A stretch of 64,000 nucleotides of DNA from Actinomadura barringtoniae (GTDB lineage Bacteria > Actinomycetota > Actinomycetes > Streptosporangiales > Streptosporangiaceae), in contig NZ_JAGEOJ010000007.1 of assembly GCF_017573505.1 (NCBI RefSeq), positions 1-64,000 of the forward strand, read 5' to 3'. Position 1 is the first letter of the stretch. Every line of letters begins with the position of its first letter. Under the pieces are notes generated by a model. The model was given only the letters and a program-made list of their open reading frames with translations, had not been told where the DNA came from and ran no database searches. This document shows positions 33,475 through 46,600 of the stretch, in pieces. The position numbers were made by a program, and so were the translations under genes.

Positions 33475-33903
33475 TCAGACCGCGCCGATGAACTGGTGGT
33501 CGGTACGGATCTTGCCGTCGTCGTCGATCGCCAGAACGTCCATGCCACCGCCGACGACTCCCCCGTCGGCCGTCACCATCGACCAGCCCACCGCGACCAC
33601 GTTGGCCAGCAGGATCGACACCTCACCGGCGGGCACGAAGGAGTGACCCGGCTCGATGAACATCTCGTACGCGCGGGTGACGCGGGCCTCCATCGCGTCG
33701 TGGCCGCGGACCTCCAGCGGCGGCACGGGGAAGGACAGATTCGCGGCGGCCTCGCGGATCTCCTCGGGCGGGTCGACCAGGACCTGGATGCCGTCGACCG
33801 CCCACAGGTCGCGGATCAGCTTGCTGCGCGTGGCGGCGTCGGGCTCGTTCCACTGGGCCATGTAGCGGTCCGTCAGCTCTTTTACGTCGAATTCGTTGCT
33901 CAT
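33475..33903 (-). CDS. NTF2-like (SnoaL) protein
   Basis: A 142-residue NTF2-fold protein beginning FDVKELTDRYMAQWNEPDAA and ending MDVLAIDDDGKIRTDHQFIG. It stands divergent to an XRE-MmyB regulator gene with a perfect dyad between them, a pairing frequent in actinobacteria; the regulator probably controls this gene. Ligand unknown. It is distantly similar to the 37813-38181 product. Confidence 0.82.
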   Translation of the reverse strand: MSNEFDVKELTDRYMAQWNEPDAATRSKLIRDLWAVDGIQVLVDPPEEIREAAANLSFPVPPLEVRGHDAMEARVTRAYEMFIEPGHSFVPAGEVSILLANVVAVGWSMVTADGGVVGGGMDVLAIDDDGKIRTDHQFIGAV

Positions 33904-33989: not shown

Positions 33990-34781
33990 ATGACGGTTGC
34001 GGTAGAAGCCGACCATTTCGCCCGCGAGCTGCGGCGCTGGCGAACGTTGCGCAGGTTGAGCCAGCTCGACCTGGCGATCAGGGCCGACACGACGCAGCGG
34101 CATCTGAGCTTCCTGGAGCAGGGCCGCTCGCGGCCCGGCCGCACCATGGTCGTACGGCTGTCTGAGACCCTGGGGCTCTCCTTGCGCGAACGGAACGACC
34201 TCCTGCTTTCCGCGGGCTTTGCCCCGGTCTATTCGGAGTCCAGGCTCGACGCCCCCGAGCTCGGCCCGGTCCGCGAGGCGCTCGGCCGCATCCTGGAAGG
34301 CCACCAGCCCTACCCGGCGGTCGTCGTCAGGCCGCACGGCGAGCTGGTCGCGGCGAACGCGGCGTTCAGCCTGCTCACCGAGGGCGTGGCGCCCGGCCTG
34401 CTGGAGCCGCCGCTGAACGTGCTGCGCATCGCCCTCCATCCGGACGGGATGGCCCGCCGGGTCGTGAACCTGGCCGAGTGGGGGCGCCACATCACCGGCA
34501 GCCTGCGCAATCAGGCCTGGCAGAGCCCAGACGCCGGGCTGGACGAGTTCATCGCCGAGCTCGAGGGCTATCTGCCCGCAGTAGAGGCCCCGGCCGAGCA
34601 CCTCGGATTCGCCGTACCGCTGCGGCTCCGGGTGCCGGAAGGGGAGCTCCGGCTGATCACCACGCTCACCTCGTTCGCCACGGCCGTGGACGTCACGCTC
34701 GCCGAGCTGCGCCTGGAGGCGTTCCTGCCCGCGGACGAGGAGACCGCCACGATCCTCAGAAGACGCGGCCAGGCCGGCTAG
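33990..34781 (+). CDS. XRE-family regulator with MmyB-like ligand domain
   Basis: A 263-residue regulator. N-terminal HTH: LRRWRTLRRLSQLDLAIRAD then TQRHLSFLEQGRSRPGR. C-terminal MmyB-like PAS-type domain: YPAVVVRPHGELVAANAAFS and LRIALHPDGMARRVVNLAEW. The MmyB domain binds fatty acids or acyl-CoA in studied relatives. Divergent from the SnoaL-like gene across a perfect dyad. Confidence 0.9.
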   Translation: MTVAVEADHFARELRRWRTLRRLSQLDLAIRADTTQRHLSFLEQGRSRPGRTMVVRLSETLGLSLRERNDLLLSAGFAPVYSESRLDAPELGPVREALGRILEGHQPYPAVVVRPHGELVAANAAFSLLTEGVAPGLLEPPLNVLRIALHPDGMARRVVNLAEWGRHITGSLRNQAWQSPDAGLDEFIAELEGYLPAVEAPAEHLGFAVPLRLRVPEGELRLITTLTSFATAVDVTLAELRLEAFLPADEETATILRRRGQAG

Positions 34782-35486: not shown

Positions 35487-36002
35487 ATGAACGCTTCCCA
35501 GACCCCCATCGCGACCCCGACCCCGCGGCTCTCCGACCCGACCGTTCTGATCCCGGAGATGCCCGAGCTGACCAAGGCGCTGTACCAGGTCACCGGCAAC
35601 GGCTCGATCCCGCGCAACACCATCGGGCTGATCCAGCTGCGCGCGGGCCAGATCGTCGGCAACACCTACCTGACCGTTCTGCACACCGGCATCCTGCGCA
35701 ACACCGGTGAGACCGAGGAGCGGATCACCGCCGTGGCGACCTGGCGGGACGCGCCCTATTTCACGCCGGCCGAACGCGCCGCGTTCGCGCTGACCGACGC
35801 CGTCCTCGAGGCGGCGGCGCACAGCGAGCGGGTCCCCGACGAGCTGTACGCCCAGGTGGCCGAGCACTACGACGAGAAGGCGATCGCCACCCTGGCGATG
35901 GCGATCGGGCAGGTCAACTTCTTCGTCCCGCTCGCGACCATCGGCAAGCCCCGCCCCGGCACCTCGCCCTCCAAGCAGTGGAAAGCCGCCGACCCCGCGT
36001 GA
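35487..36002 (+). CDS. carboxymuconolactone decarboxylase/AhpD-like protein lacking the CxxC
   Basis: A 171-residue AhpD-like alpha protein. The family segment LIQLRAGQIVGNTYLTVLHT aligns with the usual GCxYCxxxHT site, but both cysteines are replaced (Asn-Thr-Tyr-Leu); the His is kept. The rest is conserved (WRDAPYFTPAERAAFALTDA). It is therefore unlikely to be a thiol peroxidase reductase and may be a binding protein or different enzyme. ATG 35487 follows ACGGAGGAACC. Right after it is a broken hydrolase gene. Confidence 0.8.
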   Translation: MNASQTPIATPTPRLSDPTVLIPEMPELTKALYQVTGNGSIPRNTIGLIQLRAGQIVGNTYLTVLHTGILRNTGETEERITAVATWRDAPYFTPAERAAFALTDAVLEAAAHSERVPDELYAQVAEHYDEKAIATLAMAIGQVNFFVPLATIGKPRPGTSPSKQWKAADPA

Positions 36003-36015
36003 AACCGTGGCGGCG

Positions 36016-36250
36016 ATGGAGTGGCTTGGACGGCAGAACGTTCGGAACGGGGTCGTCGAGAGGTCCTTCCGGCTCGATCGAGCCTCGGGCCCTGGCCCCG
36101 TTCCGGGCGTGCTGTGGTCTCCGCCGACCTTCGACGCTCCGCCGCCGGTGGTCCTGCTGGGACATGGCCGGATTCAGCGGCGGGCATGGGGAGACCAAAC
36201 CCGAGGCCATCGCGCTGTGGCGTGAGTACGTCGCACGCCATCTGGGCTGA
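36016..36250 (+). pseudogene. alpha/beta-hydrolase remnant (internal deletion and frame shift)
   Basis: The first ~45 codons read as a dienelactone-hydrolase-like N-terminus (MEWLGRQNVRNGVVERSFRL; VPGVLWSPP; PPVVLLGHG). The next frame then continues with GGHGETKPEAIALWREYVAR, a typical C-terminal end of such enzymes. The whole centre, including the nucleophile, is missing, so this is a deletion pseudogene. Confidence 0.6.
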
Positions 36251-36341
36251 TCATTCTGGAAATGGGCCTTGCCAGATGTGGGTTCGCGCGTTTACATACA
36301 GTCGCGACGGTATGTGCCACCCCACCCCGAGGAGCATGCCC

Positions 36342-37751
36342 ATGAGGACCAACTGGACGAGGCGGCTGCTCGGCGCCATGAGCACGGTCGTGCTCGGCGT
36401 CGGCGCGTTGTCGCCGGTCGCGAGGGCGGCCACGACGACCGAGGCCACCGCGGCGAAGGCGCCCGCGACGCAGGCGGCCACGACGCAGGCGCCTGCGACG
36501 GCCGAGGACGATCCGTTCTATGCGGCGCCCGCCGGGATGGCGGACGCGAAGCCGGGCACGGTCCTGCGGTCCCGGCCGGTGCAGCTGGCGGCGTTCTCCG
36601 CGCTGCCGCAGAAGGTCTCCGCCTGGCAGCTGCTCTACCGGACGACCGGGTGGGACGGGTCGGCGCAGGCGATGGTCACCACGGTGCTCCTTCCGGCGGG
36701 GAGGCCGGCGGGCGACAAGCGGGCGCTGCTCTCCTATCAAGTCGCGCAGGACTCCTCCACGGCGCGCTGCGCTCCCTCGAAGGTGCTGCGGCAGGGCGCC
36801 GGGCTGGAGGGGCTGATCAACCAGGCCGAGATCCTGCTCGTCGACGCGGCGGCGGCCAAGGGCTGGGCGGTGTCGATCCCCGACTACGAGGGGCCGAACG
36901 GAGAGTTCGGCGCGGCCCGGCAGCCCGGGTACGCGGCGCTCGACGGAGTGCGGGCGGCGCAGAACTTCAAGCCGCTCGGCCTGGACGGCGCCCGGACGCC
37001 GGTCGGGATGTGGGGCTACTCGGGCGGCTCGCTCGCGACCGGTTGGGCCGCCGAGATGCAGCCCTCGTACGCCCCCGAACTCAACGTCAAGGGGGTCGCG
37101 GCCGGGGGCTTCGCGACCGACCTGCGGGCGGCGCTCGAGAAGATCAACGGCGGGTTCGCGGCCGGGCTGATCCCGAGCGCGCTGCCCGGGATCATGCACG
37201 CGTTCCCCAAGACCGGCGCGGTGGTGAACGCCGCGCTGAACGCCAAGGGAAAGCAGATCCTGGCGAAGGCGGCCGGCAAGTGCGTGACCGAGAACGTGCT
37301 GAGCAACCCGTTCCTCAACGTCAACGACATGACCACCAGGCCGCTGCCGCAGATCCTCGACGACCCGCAGGTCGCCGCCGATCTGAAGGAGGCCGGGCTC
37401 GGGCAGCGCACCCCGGCCGCGCCGCTGTACATCTACCACGCGATCAACGACGAGCTGATCCCGGTCGCCGGGGCGGACAAGACGGTGGCGGGCTACTGCG
37501 CGCGCGGAACGTCGGTCACGTACGAGCGGGACATGCTGAGCGAGCACGGATCGCTGGCGGTCACCGGCGCCCCGGCCGCGCTGCACTGGCTGCAGAACCA
37601 GATCGAGGGGACGCCCGCACCCAAGGGCTGTAGGCGTGCCGATGTGGTGTCGACACTGGCGACGCCTGAGGCACTCCAGCAGTTCGGGGCCCTGCTGCTG
37701 GCCGATCTCCAGGCGCTGGCCGGGCTGCCCATCGGCACCTCGCGCTGGTAA
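36342..37751 (+). CDS. secreted lipase (LIP family)
   Basis: A 469-residue exported alpha/beta hydrolase. Signal peptide MRTNWTRRLLGAMSTVVLGV cut after VARA, followed by an Ala/Thr-rich linker. The nucleophile elbow is GMWGYSGGSLATGW (Ser), with Asp in YHAINDELIPVAG and His in LSEHGSLAVTG. The order and size fit secreted triacylglycerol lipases of actinomycetes and fungi. Four Cys could form two disulfides. ATG 36342 is 7 nt from GAGGAG. Ends at a strong hairpin. Confidence 0.88.
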   Translation: MRTNWTRRLLGAMSTVVLGVGALSPVARAATTTEATAAKAPATQAATTQAPATAEDDPFYAAPAGMADAKPGTVLRSRPVQLAAFSALPQKVSAWQLLYRTTGWDGSAQAMVTTVLLPAGRPAGDKRALLSYQVAQDSSTARCAPSKVLRQGAGLEGLINQAEILLVDAAAAKGWAVSIPDYEGPNGEFGAARQPGYAALDGVRAAQNFKPLGLDGARTPVGMWGYSGGSLATGWAAEMQPSYAPELNVKGVAAGGFATDLRAALEKINGGFAAGLIPSALPGIMHAFPKTGAVVNAALNAKGKQILAKAAGKCVTENVLSNPFLNVNDMTTRPLPQILDDPQVAADLKEAGLGQRTPAAPLYIYHAINDELIPVAGADKTVAGYCARGTSVTYERDMLSEHGSLAVTGAPAALHWLQNQIEGTPAPKGCRRADVVSTLATPEALQQFGALLLADLQALAGLPIGTSRW

Positions 37752-37761
37752 CCCACCTCGC

Positions 37762-37804
37762 GAGAACGGGACGGGCCCCCGCGGGGTGGGCCCGTCCCGT
37801 TCTC
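37762..37804. terminator. bidirectional terminator
   Basis: A 16-bp stem GAGAACGGGACGGGCC with its complement and a GC-rich loop, between the lipase gene and the converging SnoaL-like gene. Confidence 0.85.
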
Positions 37805-37812
37805 ATGCCCCG

Positions 37813-38181
37813 TCAAGCAGCGGGGACCTTGTCGAGGAAGCCGAGCACCTGGGCGATCGTGCCGTCGTCGCCGAGGGCCGCGACGTCGAAGCCGATCACC
37901 ACCGGCTCGGCCGCTCCAGGCCGGCCGAGGTGCCAGGTGAACCGGGCGATGTGGTGGTGGGCGTCGACCGCGCCGCCGAGACTGAACGTGAGGCCCGCGA
38001 ACTGGCCCTGCGCGGCGGCGATCACGGCGTCCAGCGCGTCGCGGCCGCGGACCGACACCAGCGGGTCGGTGTACTCGGCGTCCTCGGCGAAGACGGTGTC
38101 GATCAGCGCCCGGCGGGCGGCCGGGTCGGTCTCGTTCCAGGCGGCGATGTAGGTCTCGACCAGCTCGTTCATGTCGCTCAT
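37813..38181 (-). CDS. NTF2-like (SnoaL) protein under the LAL-linked element
   Basis: A 122-residue NTF2-fold protein (MNELVETYIAAWNETDPAAR; DALDAVIAAAQGQFAGLTFS; VIGFDVAALGDDGTI). Divergent from the LAL regulator. Its upstream region carries the ~60-bp conserved element also found before the MFS gene at 41492-42952, so it is probably a regulon member. Substrate unknown. Confidence 0.82.
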   Translation of the reverse strand: MSDMNELVETYIAAWNETDPAARRALIDTVFAEDAEYTDPLVSVRGRDALDAVIAAAQGQFAGLTFSLGGAVDAHHHIARFTWHLGRPGAAEPVVIGFDVAALGDDGTIAQVLGFLDKVPAA

Positions 38182-38210
38182 GGCCTTGTCTCCTTAACGT
38201 GTCGCTTGCT

Positions 38211-38270
38211 GTGATCACCAAGTTAGGGAGGGCTCGGAGACGAGGAATCCGTAGCACTTAGGTAATTTCG
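38211..38270. promoter_or_regulatory. conserved upstream element, copy A
   Basis: Blocks in order: GTGATC, AGTTAGGGAG, CGAGGAATCCGT, CACTTAGGTA, TTTCG. Apart from one base of indel near the end, the same order and spacing occur in copy B (42981-43039). It lies between the SnoaL-like gene (minus) and the LAL regulator (plus), starting 30 bp from the former start codon. Confidence 0.8.
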
Positions 38271-38275
38271 GACAG

Positions 38276-41083
38276 GTGACTGAACTTCGGGGGCGCGACG
38301 CGGAGACCCGCACGATCTCCGGCCTGCTGGACGGTGCCCGCTCGGGCACCAGCGGCGCGCTGGTCCTGCGGGGCGAAGCGGGGATCGGCAAGAGCGCCCT
38401 CCTCGACCATGCCGCCCGCGCGGCCGGTGCGGGCAGTGCGGCCGGTGCGGGCAGTGCGGCCGGTGACGCCCGTGCGGCCCGCGCGGCCGGTGACGTACGG
38501 CTGCTGCGCGGAACGGGGATCGAGGGCGAGGCCGAGCTGCCGTTCGCCGGCCTTCAGCTGCTGCTCCGGCCCGCGCTGGGATGCCTGGAAGCGCTGCCGG
38601 CGCCGCAGCGTACGGCCCTGGAAGCCGCGCTCGGGCTGGGTGAGGGGAGCGGTAGCGGTCGCGATCCGATGCTGGTCGGGCTGGCCGTGCTGTCGCTGCT
38701 CACCGAGTACGCCGACGGCGGGCTGGTCTGCCTGGTCGACGACGCGCAATGGCTGGACCGGGCCTCGCGGGACGCGCTGCTGTTCGCCGCCCGCCGCCTC
38801 CAGGCCGAGGGCGTGGTCATCATCTTCGCCGTACGCGACGGCGAAGGTTCGTTCCCGGACACGACCGCGGGCCTGACCGAAATGAGGCTCGGCGGCCTGT
38901 CCCCCGAGGCGTCGGCGGCGCTGCTGGACGAGCAGAGCCTCGCACCGGCCGTGCGCTACCGGCTGCTCGCGGAGGCGCAGGGCAATCCGCTGGCCCTCCT
39001 CGAACTGGCCGCCGCCGTCGGGTCCGAACGGCACGGCGACTTCGCACCCGGCGCGATCCCGCTGACCGGGCGGCTGCAGCTGGCGTTCCACGGCCAGGTC
39101 AGCCGCATGCCCGAGACCACCCAGGCCCTGCTGCTGGTCGTCGCGGCGGACGAGACCGGCGAGCTGCCGGTCGTTCTGCGCGCCGCCGAAGCCGTTAACG
39201 CGGGCGTCGACGATCTGGTGGCCGCCGAGGAGGCCGACCTCATCCGTCGAGGCGGCGGGGAGTCGACGATCGGCTTCCGACACCCGTTGATCCGCGCCGC
39301 CGTCTACCAGCGGGCCCCGCTCGGACAACGGCTGGCCGTACATCGCGCGCTGGCCGCCGCCCTCGACACCCCCGAGCACGCCGACCGCCGCGCCTGGCAT
39401 CTGGCCGCCGCCGCGACCGGCCCGGACGAGGAGGCAGCCGAGGCCCTGGAGCGTACGGCGGCACGGGCACGCGAACGCAGCGGTCACGAGGCGGCAGCGG
39501 CGGCCTACGAACGCGCGGCCCGCCTCAGCGTCACGCCCGAGGCGAGGGCGCACCGCGAGGCGCTGGCGGCCGAGGCCGCCTTGGAGTCGGGCGATCTGGA
39601 TCGTGCCAGGGACCTGGCCTCCCGCGCCTCTCGCCGCGTCGAGGGCGCGCCCGCCGTACGGGCCAGGCTCGCGCACGTCCAGGCCCTCGCCGACTTCTGG
39701 CAGGGGTCGTTCCCGGCCGCGCACCGCCTGCTGCTCGAAGGCGCGGAGCTCATCACGGGCGACGACCCCGACCAGGCCGCCGCGATGCTGATCCAGGCGC
39801 TCCACACCGGCTGGTACCTGGGCGAACGCCAGCTGCGCGAGGTCCTGGACCGGCTGGCGAACGTACCGCTGGCGGGCGAGGACCCGCTCATCCCCGCCGC
39901 CGCGTTCCTCTCCCGGCTGCTGGATCGCGGCCGTGCCGCCGAGGCGCCGCCCGTGCTGGCCGACGCGTTCGAGGAGACGCGGCGGCGCGGCCGGGCCCCC
40001 GACCAGGTGCTGATGATGATGTGCGGCGCGGCGCTGGCACGCGGCCAGGACGCCGACGCCCACGAGCTGGCGAACGCGATCGCCGCCGACCACCGCCAGG
40101 CGGGCGCCGCCGGTGTGCTGCCGACCGCGCTGTTCTTCGTGGCCGAGGGCGAGGTCTTCACCGGACGCCACCGCGACGCGCTCACCACCGCGACCGAGGC
40201 GCTCGGCCTCGCCCGCGACACCGGGCAGCAGCAGTGGTTCGGGCAGTTCAGCAGCGTTCTGGCCTACCTGCACGCCGCCGAGGGCGACGAGGAGGCGTGC
40301 AGGCGCCAGGCGGACGCGGGCATGGCCGGTGCGACGGCCGGGTCGATCGCGCCCGGGGCGCCGTGGGCGCACTGGTCGCTCGGCCTGCTGGAGCTCGGCC
40401 TGGGCCGCGCCGAGGCCGCCCTGTCGCGCTTCGAACGCCTCACCCGCGAGCCCATGCGCCACCACATCTGCGCGACCCGTTCCACACCCGACCTGGTCGA
40501 GGCGGCCGTACGGGTCGGAGCCGCCGAACGCACCGGCGACGCGATGAAGCACTTCGAGGAGTGGGCGGCGTCCGTCCGGCGGCCCTGGGCGGACGCGCTC
40601 GTACTCCGCTGCAGGGCCCTGCTGGGCGGCGACGACGAGGCCGAACGGCTCTACGCGGACGCGCTGAAGGCACACGACCGTGACGGCCGCCCGCTGGAGT
40701 ACGCGAGGACCGCACTTCTCTACGGCGAGTGGCTGCGGCGCGCCCAGCGCAAAGCCGAGGCGCGCGTTCAGCTGAACGACGCGCTGGAGACGTTCGACCG
40801 GCTCGGCATGCGGCCGTGGGCGGAACGGGCGCGCGGCGAGCTCACCGCCACAGGCGCACCCGACGCACGGGCTAAGGCCACGCAGGGGGCCGCAGCAGGC
40901 CTCACGCCGCAGGAACTCCAGATCGTGCGCCTCGCCTCGCAGGGCCTGTCCAACCGCGACATCGCCGCGCAGCTGTTCCTCAGCCATCGCACGGTCGCCT
41001 ACCACCTCTACAAGGCGTATCCCAAGCTCGGCATCACCTCGCGCCGGGAGCTCAAGGAACTCGCCACCCGGATGGAAATCTGA
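38276..41083 (+). CDS. LAL-type LuxR-family regulator with ATPase domain
   Basis: A 935-residue regulator. The N-terminal AAA/NB-ARC-like ATPase has RGEAGIGKSALLDHAARAAG (Walker A) and LVCLVDDAQWLDRASRDALL (Walker B). A long helical TPR-like middle follows. The C-terminal LuxR HTH reads LTPQELQIVRLASQGLSNRD and LSHRTVAYHLYKAYPKLGIT. LAL proteins (MalT-like) activate transcription when ATP and an inducer bind. It starts with GTG at 38276, almost touching the conserved element. An in-frame 18-bp repeat (AGAGSA type) expands the loop after Walker A. Confidence 0.92.
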   Translation: MTELRGRDAETRTISGLLDGARSGTSGALVLRGEAGIGKSALLDHAARAAGAGSAAGAGSAAGDARAARAAGDVRLLRGTGIEGEAELPFAGLQLLLRPALGCLEALPAPQRTALEAALGLGEGSGSGRDPMLVGLAVLSLLTEYADGGLVCLVDDAQWLDRASRDALLFAARRLQAEGVVIIFAVRDGEGSFPDTTAGLTEMRLGGLSPEASAALLDEQSLAPAVRYRLLAEAQGNPLALLELAAAVGSERHGDFAPGAIPLTGRLQLAFHGQVSRMPETTQALLLVVAADETGELPVVLRAAEAVNAGVDDLVAAEEADLIRRGGGESTIGFRHPLIRAAVYQRAPLGQRLAVHRALAAALDTPEHADRRAWHLAAAATGPDEEAAEALERTAARARERSGHEAAAAAYERAARLSVTPEARAHREALAAEAALESGDLDRARDLASRASRRVEGAPAVRARLAHVQALADFWQGSFPAAHRLLLEGAELITGDDPDQAAAMLIQALHTGWYLGERQLREVLDRLANVPLAGEDPLIPAAAFLSRLLDRGRAAEAPPVLADAFEETRRRGRAPDQVLMMMCGAALARGQDADAHELANAIAADHRQAGAAGVLPTALFFVAEGEVFTGRHRDALTTATEALGLARDTGQQQWFGQFSSVLAYLHAAEGDEEACRRQADAGMAGATAGSIAPGAPWAHWSLGLLELGLGRAEAALSRFERLTREPMRHHICATRSTPDLVEAAVRVGAAERTGDAMKHFEEWAASVRRPWADALVLRCRALLGGDDEAERLYADALKAHDRDGRPLEYARTALLYGEWLRRAQRKAEARVQLNDALETFDRLGMRPWAERARGELTATGAPDARAKATQGAAAGLTPQELQIVRLASQGLSNRDIAAQLFLSHRTVAYHLYKAYPKLGITSRRELKELATRMEI
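38421..38480. repeat. 18-bp in-frame repeats in the LAL gene
   Basis: Units of GCGGCCGGTGCGGGCAGT occur twice exactly and then degenerate, encoding AAGAGSAAGAGSAAGD just after the Walker A helix. Confidence 0.75.
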
Positions 41084-41103
41084 AACCCAGGAAGGCCGAT
41101 CCC

Positions 41104-41439
41104 ATGACGACTCCTCGGCAAGTGCTGCCCGGACAGACCCTCCCCGTCGACATCGACGACATCCCCGCCGAGGACCTGGCTCCGGGCATCCACGTGCGCA
41201 TGCTCCCCGGCATGGAGGGCATCCGTACGTGGGTCATCGACCTTGACCCGGGCGCCGAGTGGCCGGACGTCGACGTGCACGAGACCTACGGCGAGGCGTA
41301 CTTCGTCGTGAGCGGCGAGATCATCGAGGGCGACCGCACGTACGGCCCCGGCACCTACGTCGCGATGGGAGCCGAGACCAGCCACCGCCCGCGCACCGAG
41401 ACCGGCGTCCGCGCCTTCGGCTTCAACTACGACGTCTAG
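41104..41439 (+). CDS. cupin-domain protein
   Basis: A 111-residue single-cupin protein with motif VHETYGEAYFVVSGE, then GPGTYVAMGAETSHRP: two His, one Glu and a distal His consistent with a metal site. It lies 20 bp after the LAL regulator and is probably cotranscribed. Role unknown; may supply or sense the regulator ligand (inference). Confidence 0.82.
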   Translation: MTTPRQVLPGQTLPVDIDDIPAEDLAPGIHVRMLPGMEGIRTWVIDLDPGAEWPDVDVHETYGEAYFVVSGEIIEGDRTYGPGTYVAMGAETSHRPRTETGVRAFGFNYDV

Positions 41440-41443
41440 AAAC

Positions 41444-41484
41444 GCCATGGCCTCGGTGACCGTGACGGTCACCGAGGCCATGGC
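41444..41484. terminator. bidirectional terminator
   Basis: A 17-bp perfect stem GCCATGGCCTCGGTGAC with its complement and 7-nt loop, between the cupin and the converging MFS gene. Confidence 0.85.
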
Positions 41485-41491
41485 CGAACGT

Positions 41492-42952
41492 TCAGCCGTT
41501 CACCCGCGCCTTCGGCAGCAGCTGCACCAGCGCCGCGGCGACGACGCAGAGCGCGGCCAGCGGCAGCAGGCTCCACACGAACGCCGTCCCGAAGGTGTCC
41601 GCCGCCGGGTGCCCGCCGAGCCGGTCGTAGAAGACGATCCCGACCGCGGCGATCCCCAGCGCCCCGCCGACCTGGTTGGCGGTGGCCAGCACCCCGCCCG
41701 CCGAGGCCGCGTGCTTCGGCCCGACCCCGGCCAGCACGGTCCCGGGCATCGGCACCAGGGCGAGGCCCATTCCGGCGCCCGCGACGACCATGCCGGGGAT
41801 CATCCACAGCACGCTCCCGCCGGTGCCGATCAGCTCGACGGTCCCGGCGATCATCGCGTACCCCGCGGCCTGGACCAGCGTGCCCACCGTGATGACCTGG
41901 CGGCCGATCCTGGCCGCGACCTTCTCCGAAAGCTTCGAGGCCACCAGGTATCCGCCGCCGAGCGCGATGAACAGCAGACCCGAGCCGAGCGCGGTCATGC
42001 CGTGCCCCTGCTGCAGGTAGAGCGCCAGGAAGAGGAAGAACGAGCCCATCACCATGTTGTAGACCAGCGCCAGCGACACCCCGGCCGCGAAAGCCCGACC
42101 GCGGAACAACACCGGGTCCATCAGCGGCGCAGCCCCACGCCGAGCCAACCACCGCTGGTAGGCCGCGAACAGTCCGAGCAGCATCGGTGCGGCGGCCAGC
42201 GACAGCCAGGTCCACAGCGGCCAGCCCTGCTCACGGCCCTGGATCAGCGGCAGCACGACCGCGACGAGCCCGGCCACGATCAGGTCCATACCGATGAAGT
42301 CGAGCTTGGTGCCGCCGGCGCCGCGCGACTCGGGGACCAGCCGGCGCAGCAGGACCAGCGCGGCGATGCCCACCGGGACGTTGATCCAGAAGATGCTGCG
42401 CCAGCCCAGCCCGAACAGGTCGGCCTTGATGAGCACACCACCGATCAGCTGCCCGAACACCGCCGCCAGCCCCATGGCCAGCCCGTACGCGGCGAACGCC
42501 TTAGCCTGCTTCGCCCCGGTGAACACCACGCTGATGATGCCCAGGACCTGCGGCATCAGCAGCGCCATGCCCATCCCCTGAACGACCCGCGCCACGATCA
42601 ACGTGCCCGCGCCCTCCGCGACCGCGCAGCCCACCGACGCCAACGTGAACAGCGCCAGCCCCAGCCCGTACATGCGGCGCCGCCCGTACAGATCCCCGAG
42701 CCGCCCACCGGTGATCAGCCCCGCCGCGACCGCCAGCCCGTACCCCGCGACGACCCACTGGATCGCCGCGGTGCTCGCCCCCAGATCCCGCTGCGTGTCG
42801 GGGATGGCGACGTTGACGATGAAGAAGTCGAGCGTCGCCATGAAGATCCCGGCCAGCAGGACCAGCAGAGTCCCCCAGGACCCCTGCGCCCGCTCGGCCT
42901 TCCGCGCCGCCCGCCCACCCGGTACGGCTTCGACCAACGTGTTCGATGACAT
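41492..42952 (-). CDS. MFS drug exporter (DHA2, 14-TM type)
   Basis: A 486-residue proton-driven multidrug efflux protein. It has 14 hydrophobic segments, the TM1 motif LDFFIVNVAIPDTQRDL, motif A GGRLGDLYGRRRMY and a TM5 region LMPQVLGIISVVFTG. The N-terminal cytoplasmic tail is basic (GGRAARKAERAQG). ATG 42952 is used; a TTG at 42970 is possible. Upstream is copy B of the conserved element shared with the SnoaL-like gene at 37813, so it likely belongs to the LAL regulon. Confidence 0.9.
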   Translation of the reverse strand: MSSNTLVEAVPGGRAARKAERAQGSWGTLLVLLAGIFMATLDFFIVNVAIPDTQRDLGASTAAIQWVVAGYGLAVAAGLITGGRLGDLYGRRRMYGLGLALFTLASVGCAVAEGAGTLIVARVVQGMGMALLMPQVLGIISVVFTGAKQAKAFAAYGLAMGLAAVFGQLIGGVLIKADLFGLGWRSIFWINVPVGIAALVLLRRLVPESRGAGGTKLDFIGMDLIVAGLVAVVLPLIQGREQGWPLWTWLSLAAAPMLLGLFAAYQRWLARRGAAPLMDPVLFRGRAFAAGVSLALVYNMVMGSFFLFLALYLQQGHGMTALGSGLLFIALGGGYLVASKLSEKVAARIGRQVITVGTLVQAAGYAMIAGTVELIGTGGSVLWMIPGMVVAGAGMGLALVPMPGTVLAGVGPKHAASAGGVLATANQVGGALGIAAVGIVFYDRLGGHPAADTFGTAFVWSLLPLAALCVVAAALVQLLPKARVNG

Positions 42953-42980
42953 GACCTGCGATCCCTTCAACCGAGTTCCA

Positions 42981-43039
42981 GTGATCTCGAAATTAGGGAG
43001 ATCGCTCAGCCGAGGAATCCGTCGTACTTAAGTACTTCG
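42981..43039. promoter_or_regulatory. conserved upstream element, copy B
   Basis: Blocks GTGATC, AATTAGGGAG, CGAGGAATCCGT, TACTTAAGTA and CTTCG match copy A at 38211-38270. TACTTAAGTA is a perfect palindrome. The end of the block is duplicated: CTTAAGTACTTCGCT occurs twice in tandem at 43027-43041 and 43042-43056. Confidence 0.8.
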
Positions 43040-43077
43040 CTCTTAAGTACTTCGCTCAGCACATGCGGCAGGCACGC

Positions 43078-43111
43078 GGAGGCCCCGGACCGCCGTTGGT
43101 CCGGGGCCTCC
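43078..43111 (-). terminator. hairpin terminator after the gene remnant
   Basis: A 14-bp perfect stem GGAGGCCCCGGACC with its complement, loop GCCGTT, placed 10 bp after the stop of the remnant at 43121. Confidence 0.75.
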
Positions 43112-43120
43112 GGGCAAGGG

Positions 43121-43342
43121 TCAGGCGGCGCCGGTGACCGCGGGGGTGTAGTGGGAGGCGTCGTCGCCTTCGACGATGTAGCTTTCGTGGCCGTCTACGC
43201 CTACCGGGACGTCCCCGGTGTGCACCGCCCAGAGCCGGTCGGCGAGTTCGCGCAGCTCGGTGGGCGGGTCCTGGTGCTGGTCGAGCGCCGGTTCACCCGC
43301 TGGCGGCCGCCGACGTCCCGGTAAGAGAGTTTCGCAAGACTG
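43121..43342 (-). pseudogene. 3' remnant of an unidentified gene
   Basis: A 73-codon open frame with good codon use but no usable start. It ends PPTELRELADRLWAVHTGDV and HESYIVEGDDASHYTPAV, and is followed by its own terminator. I cannot name the family. It looks like the C-terminal end of a gene whose 5' part was deleted. Confidence 0.4.
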
Positions 43343-43358
43343 TCACTATCTTGCGCAA
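43330..43358. promoter_or_regulatory. inverted repeat, LacI-type operator candidate
   Basis: TTTCGCAAGA (43330-43339) and TCTTGCGCAA (43349-43358), nine of ten positions paired, around a 9-nt spacer. The CGCAAGA core resembles operators of sugar-responsive LacI-type repressors. It is 300 bp before the glucanase gene. Confidence 0.4.
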
Positions 43359-43660
43359 TCCCGCCGCAACGGCCGAGAGCCGGGGCGGCGGGATTGCCTT
43401 CCCTGCGTGCTCCCTGCGCATGCCCAGCGTGAACCCGTTCCAGGCCACGGCATCGCGCCCCGGACACGCGCCGTAACAAGGTCACGTTTCTCCAGATCAC
43501 GCGCGCAACACCTTCAATCCGCGCGCGATGTCTGCTTTTTGCGCATGTTCATTCATGTATTGCAATGTGATGTTCGTCTCTATATGTTCCTCGCAATCAT
43601 GCCGCTCCTCCCAGGCAGGTGTCCCACCCCGCATCACCCGACAAGGGAGCAGAACCAGCG
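43343..43660. other. leader region of the GH87 gene
   Basis: About 318 bases without a gene. It has a hairpin with arms AATCCCGCCGC and GCGGCGGGATT (43357-43395), then an AT-richer stretch (43500-43610) with repeated ATGTTC and TTCATTCATGTATTGCAATG that likely contains the glucanase promoter. Confidence 0.5.
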
Positions 43661-46600
43661 ATGAGACAGACTCCCCTCCGCATCCTGCTGGTAGCGGCGC
43701 TGGCCGCGATCGGGCTGACGGGCCTGGTCGCGTCCCCCGCCGGCGCCCACGCCCAACCCCGCGTACGCGCGGCGGCCGCGACGAACCTGGCAGCGGGCAA
43801 GCCCGTCTCCGCCAGCACCTCGAACGGCCAGTACACGGCGGCGAACGTCAACGACGGCAACCAGGCCACCTACTGGGAGAGCGCCAACAACGCGTTCCCG
43901 CAATGGATCCAGGTCGACCTCGGCGCCTCGGTCGACACCAACAAGGTCGTGCTGAAGCTGCCGGTCGCCAACTGGGCCGCCCGCACGCAGACCCTGTCCG
44001 TTCAGGGCAGCACGAACGGCACCGGCTACAGCGACCTGGTCGGCTCGGCAGGACGCGTCTTCGACCCGGCGAGCAACAACACCGTGACGCTGACGTACGA
44101 CAGCAAGCCGACCCGCTACCTGCGCGTGCTCATCACGGCCAACACCGGCTGGCCCGCCGGGCAGCTTTCTGAGCTCGAGGTCTACGGGCCGACGACCGGC
44201 GACCAGACCCCGCCGACCGCACCCTCCAACCTCGCCTACACCGAACCTGCGAGCGGGCAGATCAAGCTGACCTGGAACGCCTCGTCCGACGCGGTGGGCG
44301 TGACCGGCTACGACGTCTACGCCAACAACGCGCTGCGCGGCAGCGTCGCGGGCAACGTCCTCACCTACACCGACAACCAGCCCGACTCCGCGACCGTGTC
44401 CTACTTCGTGCGGGCCAAGGACGCGGCGGGGAACGTCTCGCCCGACAGCAACGTGGTAACCCGCCAGGGCCGGGGCGGCGGCGGCACCAACCTCGCCGCG
44501 GGCAAGCCGATCACCGCGTCGTCGCACGTGTTCGACTTCGTCGAGACCAACGCCAACGACAACAACCTCGCGACCTACTGGGAGTCGGGGTCCGGCGCCT
44601 ACCCGGCGACGCTCACCGTGAGCCTGGGCGCGAAGGCCGACATCAGCTCCGTCGTGGTGAAGCTCAACCCCGACGCCGCCTGGTCCACCCGTACGCAGAA
44701 CATCGAGGTGCAGGGCCGCAGCAGTACGAGCGGCTCGTTCACCACGCTCAAGGCCGCCGCGGACTACACGTTCAACCCGTCCACCGGTAACAGCGCGACG
44801 ATCCCGGTGAGCGGCAACGCGGCCGAGGTACGGCTCAAGTTCGCGAGCAACACCGGCGCGCCCGGCGCGCAGGCGGCAGAGTTCCAGGTCATCGGCACCC
44901 CGGCGCCGACGCCCGACCTGACCGTCACCGACGTGTCCTGGACGCCGTCCTCCCCCATCGAGACCGACGACATCACGCTCAAGGCGACGGTCAAGAACGC
45001 CGGAACGGGCGCCGCCGACGCGAGCGGCCTCGACTTCCTGGTCGGCGGGCAGAAGACCAAGTCGGCCTCGGTCGGCGCGCTCGCCGCAGGTGCCTCGCAG
45101 ACCGTGTCGGCCTCGATCGGCACGCGCGACGCCGGCTCGTACACCGTCGGCGCCACCGCCGACGCCAATGACGACAACATCGAGCTGAACGAGACCAACA
45201 ACACCACGACGGCGGCGAACAAGCTGACCGTCGGGCCGGTGCCGAGCTCCGACCTGGTGGCGCAGGCCGTCACGTGGAGCCCGGGCAACCCGCAGAACGG
45301 CGACACCGTCACGTTCTCCGTCCAGCTCCGCAACGACGGGACGCTCGCCACCGCGAGCGGCGCGCACGCCATCACGCTGTCGGTGCTGAACAGCAGCGAC
45401 ACCGTGGTGAAGACGCTGACCGGCAGCTACAACGGATCGCTCGCGCCGGGCGCGTCCGCCGCGCCGATCAACCTCGGCACGTGGACGGCGGCCAACGGGC
45501 GCTACACGGTCCAGACCGTCATCGCCGACGACGCCAACGAGGTGCCCGTCAAGCGCGCCAACAACACCAGCAAGCTGTCGCTGTTCGTCGGCCGCGGCGC
45601 GAACATGCCGTACGACACCTACGAGGCCGAGGACGGCGCGCTCGGCGGCGGCGCGGCGGTCGTCGGGCCCAACCGGAAGATCGGCGACCTGGCGGGCGAG
45701 GCCTCCGGGCGGCGCGCGGTCACACTCAACTCGACCGGCGCCAGCGTGGAGTTCACCACCCGGGCGGCCACCAACACCCTGGTGACCCGCTACTCCATCC
45801 CGGACTCCTCCGGTGGCGGCGGCCAGAACTCGACGCTGAACGTGTACGTGGACGGGACGTTCCTCAAGGCCATCGACCTCACCTCCCGCTACACCTGGGT
45901 GTACGGGGCCGAGGCGAGCCCGAGCAACTCGCCGGGATCGGGCGACCCGCGCCACATCTACGACGAGGCCAACCTGATGCTCGGCACGACCGTTCCGGCC
46001 GGGCACAAGATCAAGCTGCAGAAGGACGCGGCGAACGGCACCACCTACGCCATCGACTTCATCAACACCGAGCAGGCGGCGGCGCAGGCCAACCCCGACC
46101 CCGCGCACTACGCGGTCCCGGCCGGGTTCACGCACCAGGACGTGCAGAACGCGCTCGACAAGGTGCGCCAGGACACGAGCCTCACCGGCGTCTACCTGCC
46201 CGCCGGCGACTACGACACCGCGCAGAAGTTCCAGGTCTACGGCAAGGGCGTGAAGGTCGTCGGTGCGGGCCCGTGGTTCACCAGGTTCCGTACGCCGCAG
46301 GGCCAGGAGAACACCGACGCCGGGTTCCGTACGGAGGCCTCCTCCAACGGATCGACGTTCTCGGGGTTCTCGTTCTTCGGCAACTACACCTCGCGCATCG
46401 ACGGTCCCGGCAAGGTCTTCGACTTCAACAACGTCAAGAACATGACGATCGACAACGTCTGGATCGAGCACACCGTCTGCATGTTCTGGGGCAGCAACGT
46501 CGACGGCTCCACCATCAAGAACGCGCGGATCCGCGACACCTGGGCCGACGGGATCAACCTCACCAACGGCAGCAGCGACAACTCGGTCAGCAACACCGAG

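Follow-up and report, generated by a model that had tools for sequence, protein, structure and literature searches.

A conserved element that occurs twice in the DNA analysed here (the window, 64,000 nucleotides of an Actinomadura barringtoniae contig) serves, with good probability judging from comparative sequence evidence, as promoter and operator for a small regulon under the control of the neighbouring LAL gene, whose product is a MalT-like ATPase. The element has the anatomy of a promoter, is strongly conserved, stands before target genes and is inherited together with the LAL. Since in many soil bacteria it is found together with the LAL and the LAL's probable targets, it is likely to be the switch of that LAL. 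LAL proteins are numerous in antibiotic-producing bacteria, and few of their operators are known to us. A promoter–operator that can be searched for as a pattern gives direct access to LAL targets, to reporters with which inducers can be screened for, and to the signals that the ATPase sensors detect.

The LAL locus and its two copies of the element

The original prediction had placed a long conserved element before an NTF2-like gene and an MFS pump gene, both on the minus strand, with a LAL and a cupin gene between them. This layout was confirmed, and the features of the locus are as follows:

37813..38181, minus strand: SnoaL-like (NTF2 fold) protein, 122 aa, target gene 1 (SnoaL_2, E=2.4e-10)
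38206..38267, minus strand: element copy 1, putative promoter–operator of the SnoaL/NTF2 gene, between SnoaL and the divergent LAL
38220..38225, minus strand: −10 hexamer TAACTT (TANNNT) of the predicted SnoaL promoter (element alignment, bases checked)
38245..38249, minus strand: GATTC core of copy 1 (GAATC on the plus strand), over the −35 region; proposed proximal LAL site
38255..38264, minus strand: distal half-site of copy 1, CACTTAGGTA (near-palindrome GTRCTTARGTAC), the CTTARGTA at about −44 to −51
38263..38268, plus strand: TAATTT, possible −10 of a leaderless LAL transcript (suggested by the sequence)
38276..41083, plus strand: LAL regulator, 935 aa (AAA_16 ATPase and GerE helix-turn-helix)
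41104..41439, plus strand: ChrR-type cupin, 111 aa
41492..42952, minus strand: MFS efflux pump, target gene 2 (MFS_1; open frame begins at 42970)
42976..43037, minus strand: element copy 2, putative promoter–operator of the MFS gene
42990..42995, minus strand: −10 hexamer TAATTT of the predicted MFS promoter (element alignment, bases checked)
43015..43019, minus strand: GATTC core of copy 2 (element alignment, bases checked)
43025..43034, minus strand: distal half-site of copy 2, TACTTAAGTA, a perfect palindrome (from the sequence)
43027..43056, minus strand: exact tandem pair of CTTAAGTACTTCGCT, candidate extra distal site upstream of the MFS promoter

The pairing itself is real: a repeat search of the window recovered an ungapped repeat of 62 nt, 76% identical (38206-38267 and 42976-43037), and a composite element pattern had exactly 2 matches in the window, versus 0 in 100 dinucleotide shuffles. 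The single indel that had been claimed for the pair is not required anywhere in these 62 nt, in which TTAGGGAG, CGAGGAATCCGT and ACTTARGTA are identically spaced. Two tandem units of the 15-mer CTTAAGTACTTCGCT, at 43027 and 43042, are found at the upstream end of copy 2; beside this exact 15-bp repeat of the MFS copy, a 12-bp tandem repeat of the distal half was found in another genome (G222).

The 935-aa protein is a LAL of the MalT type, being large and combining an ATP-binding N-terminus (AAA_16 at residues 3-183, E=1.2e-15) with a helix-turn-helix at the C-terminus (GerE at residues 876-926, E=1.2e-14). A ChrR-type cupin gene comes after the LAL in many relatives too, and the best NCBIfam match of the MFS protein is the EmrB/DHA2 type, at 209 bits and thus under the cut-off of 230 for that family. 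Other features of this part of the window include, at 41444-41484 where the cupin and MFS genes converge, a perfect inverted repeat of 20 bp around a 1-nt centre, possibly a bidirectional transcription end, and tandem repeats of 9, 18 and 27 bp (GCGGCCGGTGCGGGCAGT), all multiples of three, in the 5′ part of the LAL gene (38410-38495). Elsewhere in the window, a 142-aa protein without a Pfam match has a start that resembles SnoaL proteins (33475-33903), and its gene is divergent from that of an MmyB/MltR-like regulator (33990-34781). A reading of the element as a structured RNA was rejected, as 0 Rfam families matched at gathering score in 36000-44500.

Copy number, spread and downstream genes

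The strict 24-nt pattern occurs in 3 copies in the 11.7-Mb assembly, namely the two in the window and a third (C5:37190) ahead of a second SnoaL gene that has DUF1330 and alpha/beta-hydrolase genes behind it (both families confirmed). Across the family, strict copies were detected in 29 of 341 genomes, at 36 places, and the reversed pattern in 0; the element of one genome of the same genus (L144) is identical to that of an Actinomadura rifamycini locus (L066). An extended core, searched in a class-wide sample, was found in 6 of 296 genomes at 9 places, four of them in the A. barringtoniae genome itself, against 3 matches of the reversed control. Outside that genome, a LAL (39-53% identity) lies no more than about 3 kb away at four of the five places, and the fifth adjoins an alpha/beta-hydrolase homologue.

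All fetched loci together hold 109 distinct cores, 61 strict and 48 diverged, a total that includes chance matches inside genes. Nearly all strict copies (58 of 61) stand directly upstream of one of four kinds of gene, encoding SnoaL (52), DUF1330 (3), MFS (2) or alpha/beta-hydrolase (1) proteins. The remaining three, all from family genomes (L128, L133, L136), precede the gene of a small, apparently secreted protein, for which the first 60 residues of the L128 representative gave no Pfam match. Among the 48 diverged cores, 20 precede SnoaL genes, 4 M24-type peptidase genes and 1 an MFS gene, and 23 stand before other genes or nothing recognised. The window is not alone in linking the element to MFS, since one locus (L059) has the order MFS-element-LAL; an MFS gene also follows SnoaL behind one element at L058, L065, L097, L105, L122, L126 and L171.

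Two similar copies 4.8 kb apart could in principle reflect a recent duplication or a functionless mobile repeat family of the REP/MITE type. This explanation is refuted, and we give it practically no weight: there are 3 strict copies in the genome, the element is conserved in several families of Actinomycetota, and the 58 copies just described sit at the starts of four kinds of gene.

Promoter anatomy

The element was aligned across 55 distinct copies (63 before duplicates were removed) found with a 24-column pattern; a minus-strand match in L089 was left out by hand from this alignment and from the copy listing. Conservation spans about −28 to +29 in pattern coordinates, decreasing to background on the distal side and grading into the leader on the gene side. 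The pentamer GAATC is invariant in the 55 distinct copies, and so are the three fixed bases of TANNNT (at −21, −17 and −16; 55/55), even though these lie outside the search pattern. Numbered on the transcribed strand, GATTC falls at about −32 to −36 and the CTTARGTA of the near-palindrome at about −44 to −51, and in 83 classified copies the extrapolated start codons lie 8-90 nt from the −10, most of them at 40-57 nt.

TANNNT is an ordinary sigma-A −10. Its fixed distance from the proposed activator site is the arrangement of an activator-dependent sigma-A promoter, and the element is a promoter with a probable activator site. Promoters with a consensus −35 numbered 0 in 38100-43200, a weak result in that shuffles give only 0.3. 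Four Nocardia copies (L040, L048, L049, L091) carry a palindrome, GACCGGTC, directly upstream of the distal half, which is possibly another operator.

Association of the element with the LAL

We examined the link to the LAL both from the element and from the protein. Outside the window, a LAL lies in the fetched stretch (3-19 kb) of 23 of 34 family copies. At genome level, a LAL at E<=1e-150 was found in 29 of 29 element genomes versus 35 of 61 genomes without the strict pattern, the latter chosen by hand from 312 such family genomes. A LAL at least 70% identical was found in 20 of 29 (21 with the fragment L141) versus 2 of 61, where scores are those of the best 30 (element) and best 14 (non-element) candidates per genome. 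Both of these 2 genomes carry the element with 3-4 mismatches, just outside the cut-off, so that all genomes with a LAL of at least 70% identity among the 90 examined have the element. At the other end of the range, the best LAL is 55% identical or less in the element genomes G264, G246 and G284, and 49% identical in G313, a genome with a strict element and 8% contamination.

From the protein side, we took the best 80 of 321 LAL relatives recovered by a protein search. Within these loci, the element matched with at most 5 mismatches in 33 of 80, and the core at 19-nt spacing in 55 of 80, with 57 matches, of which one each in L089 and L092 looks like chance. Control spacings of 17, 18, 20 and 21 gave 1, 1, 4 and 0 matches, and the reversed core 0; spacing 20 is an unclean control, as L075, L076 and L107 have a 20-nt core 82-103 bp before the LAL. 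The 19-nt core was not found in 25 of the 80 loci, whose LALs are all at most 56% identical and four of which have the 20-nt version. In a quick tree of 99 LALs, the LAL of the window falls in a clade of 27 rows (SH-aLRT 100), and in all 27 the element lies no more than 6 kb from where the LAL starts. Clade members come from Streptosporangiaceae, Thermomonosporaceae, Nocardia, Micromonospora and Streptomyces, and their layouts include divergent SnoaL-LAL pairs, LAL-cupin with a convergent SnoaL, and copies that stand 2-6 kb away from the LAL start. Labels on the tree were assigned by hand, "diverged" denoting any core in the locus. Left out of the tree were duplicates (L161, L162, L169), two LALs without a C-terminal match (L070, L115), and L100, which carries the element and has a LAL match of fewer than 500 residues. 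With the element present beside LAL homologues elsewhere and the dispersed repeat ruled out, the originally predicted "shared operator plus promoter of one regulon" is supported.

We also considered a reading in which the element is recognised by another regulator or by an alternative sigma factor, and the LAL is a passenger of the same gene island. The conserved bases at both −35 and −10 resemble those of a sigma-factor promoter, 11 of the 34 family copies have no LAL in the fetched stretch, and in one locus (L164) a PadR-type regulator gene lies between a diverged core and the LAL. Of the 11 loci that have no LAL close by, we compared ten (L123, with a LAL about 10 kb away, was left out), and found SnoaL in 6/10 and DUF1330 in 4/10. 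No regulator family recurs at these ten loci, with ABC-type and incidental families in at most 3/10, and another regulator beside these copies was rejected on this basis. The filter for open reading frames used here recovered the LAL in 8/10 control loci and ignored frames of less than 100 codons, so that a small regulator could be missed. Further against a passenger role, LALs at least 70% identical accompany the element in 20/29 versus 2/61 genomes, the core is shared by LAL paralogues whose neighbouring targets differ, and LAL and element persist while gene order changes. Overall, a passenger LAL appears quite improbable, and control by the LAL is the reading we retain.

A wider core shared with LAL paralogues

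A loose first look at the A. barringtoniae genome gave 192 candidate LAL stretches, not all of which are LALs. Near LAL paralogues, diverged cores precede M24-type peptidase genes (L175, L176, L180, L164) and, in the A. barringtoniae genome itself (L163), another SnoaL-like gene; the core is absent at 3 of the five paralogue loci fetched from this genome (L165-L167). Three SnoaL-LAL pairs without a core match (L193, L194, L198) carry GCATC rather than GAATC, with the spacing unchanged, hence GAATC is not strictly needed. The recognition helix is nearly constant among the LALs compared. Residues of the helix-turn-helix that might track the distal half (SHRTV in the clade versus mostly SPRTV) were rejected as a candidate, as L121 and L122 have SPRTV but also CTTARGTA.

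Tentatively, and with slightly less than even confidence, we propose that GATTC at a fixed phase to TANNNT may be a recognition code that holds generally within a large subfamily of Actinomycetota LALs, and that the distal half (of CTTARGTA, CCCGGTA and ATGACCGGT types) may be clade-specific and set specificity. Under such a code, the core would be common to paralogues because the recognition helix (SxRTVGYHLYKAYPKLG type) varies little, and the targets of many orphan LALs would be readable from sequence. Two diverged cores in the A. barringtoniae genome have other surroundings. One, a second core beside a LAL paralogue (L163:3444, contig C12), faces into the 3′ end of that paralogue with no clear gene ahead, and perhaps marks an antisense transcript or small gene; the other (L183:6501, contig C14), with GACCGGTC palindromes, precedes an FMN-reductase gene and has no LAL in 13 kb.

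Proposed mechanism

The LAL probably controls the SnoaL/MFS regulon by binding to the element, and probably acts as its activator. In the scheme we favour, the LAL would oligomerise upon binding ATP and a small molecule, and its GerE domains would then contact the GATTC that covers −32 to −36, in the −35 region, and, at about −44 to −51, the distal CTTARGTA half, as well as the extra tandem half-site in the MFS copy. The LAL would thereby recruit sigma-A polymerase, which may itself read only the TANNNT −10. The targets, SnoaL-like and MFS proteins here and DUF1330 and alpha/beta-hydrolase proteins elsewhere, would then act on the inducer by binding, modifying or exporting it. The fixed phase to the −10, the conservation of the −35 region, the repeated distal halves and the LAL linkage agree best with class II activation, carried out by an oligomeric protein of the MalT-like kind.

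The element is a feature of the target genes, and does not in general serve as the promoter of the LAL itself. General autoregulation of the LAL was rejected, since in the 24 clade members that have the element elsewhere, the 150 nt preceding the LAL contain no TTARGTA/TARGTAC half on the LAL strand. Within the window, TAATTT (38263..38268) stands 7 nt before the LAL GTG at 38276 and overlaps the distal half-site of copy 1, so that LAL binding could also affect LAL expression there; such an overlap was not found in the other clade members examined.

Alternatively, the LAL may bind the element and mainly repress, with the inducer releasing it as for many repressors of efflux pumps. The efflux-type gene among the targets, the overlap of a distal half with a possible LAL −10 in the window, and the report of another LAL, SCO6993, as a repressor (PMC9628970) are all consistent with this. 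The most conserved bases, however, lie over the −35 region in fixed phase to the −10, which is the layout of an activator-dependent promoter, and the lack of a −35 consensus in the interval scanned points, if weakly, the same way. We thus consider repression unlikely, while according it some weight, and activation the preferred reading.

Comparison with known systems

Judged by title and abstract, none of the open-access papers listed describes the element or its regulon, and 11-base element strings searched there gave unrelated titles among the matches listed. At MalT promoters, the activator site overlaps the −35 region. The proposed site in the element does likewise, and the regulator resembles Escherichia coli MalT, the LAL archetype, in being a large ATPase with a C-terminal LuxR-type helix-turn-helix and repeated short sites. 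Unlike MalT systems, the element has GATTC and CTTARGTA and its targets are SnoaL, MFS and DUF1330 genes; the MalT box, GGA[TG]GA as quoted in PMC9628970, is absent from both strands of both 62-nt copies.

Three other regulators offer further points of comparison. SCO6993 of Streptomyces coelicolor is also a LAL, and the pentamer GAATC/GATTC is present in two of its four footprints (actII-ORF4 and redD) and lacking in the two at its own promoter; unlike the 935-aa LAL of the window, it has 606 aa and is a reported repressor for which the authors found no consensus (PMC9628970). RevU of Streptomyces sp. SN-593 is likewise a LuxR-family regulator with an N-terminal ATP-binding region, and a small molecule enhances its DNA binding; it differs in regulating a biosynthetic cluster, and its binding sequence was left to future study by its authors (PMC7311520). 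MilO, from the mildiomycin cluster, is a LuxR-family activator that binds direct repeats, although these sites, TGTC(N)3CGGT 142 bp upstream of the start, differ from the element in sequence and position (PMC11784345). Taken together, we rate the regulon described here as new, its regulator as being of a known kind, and its operator as unusually well conserved.
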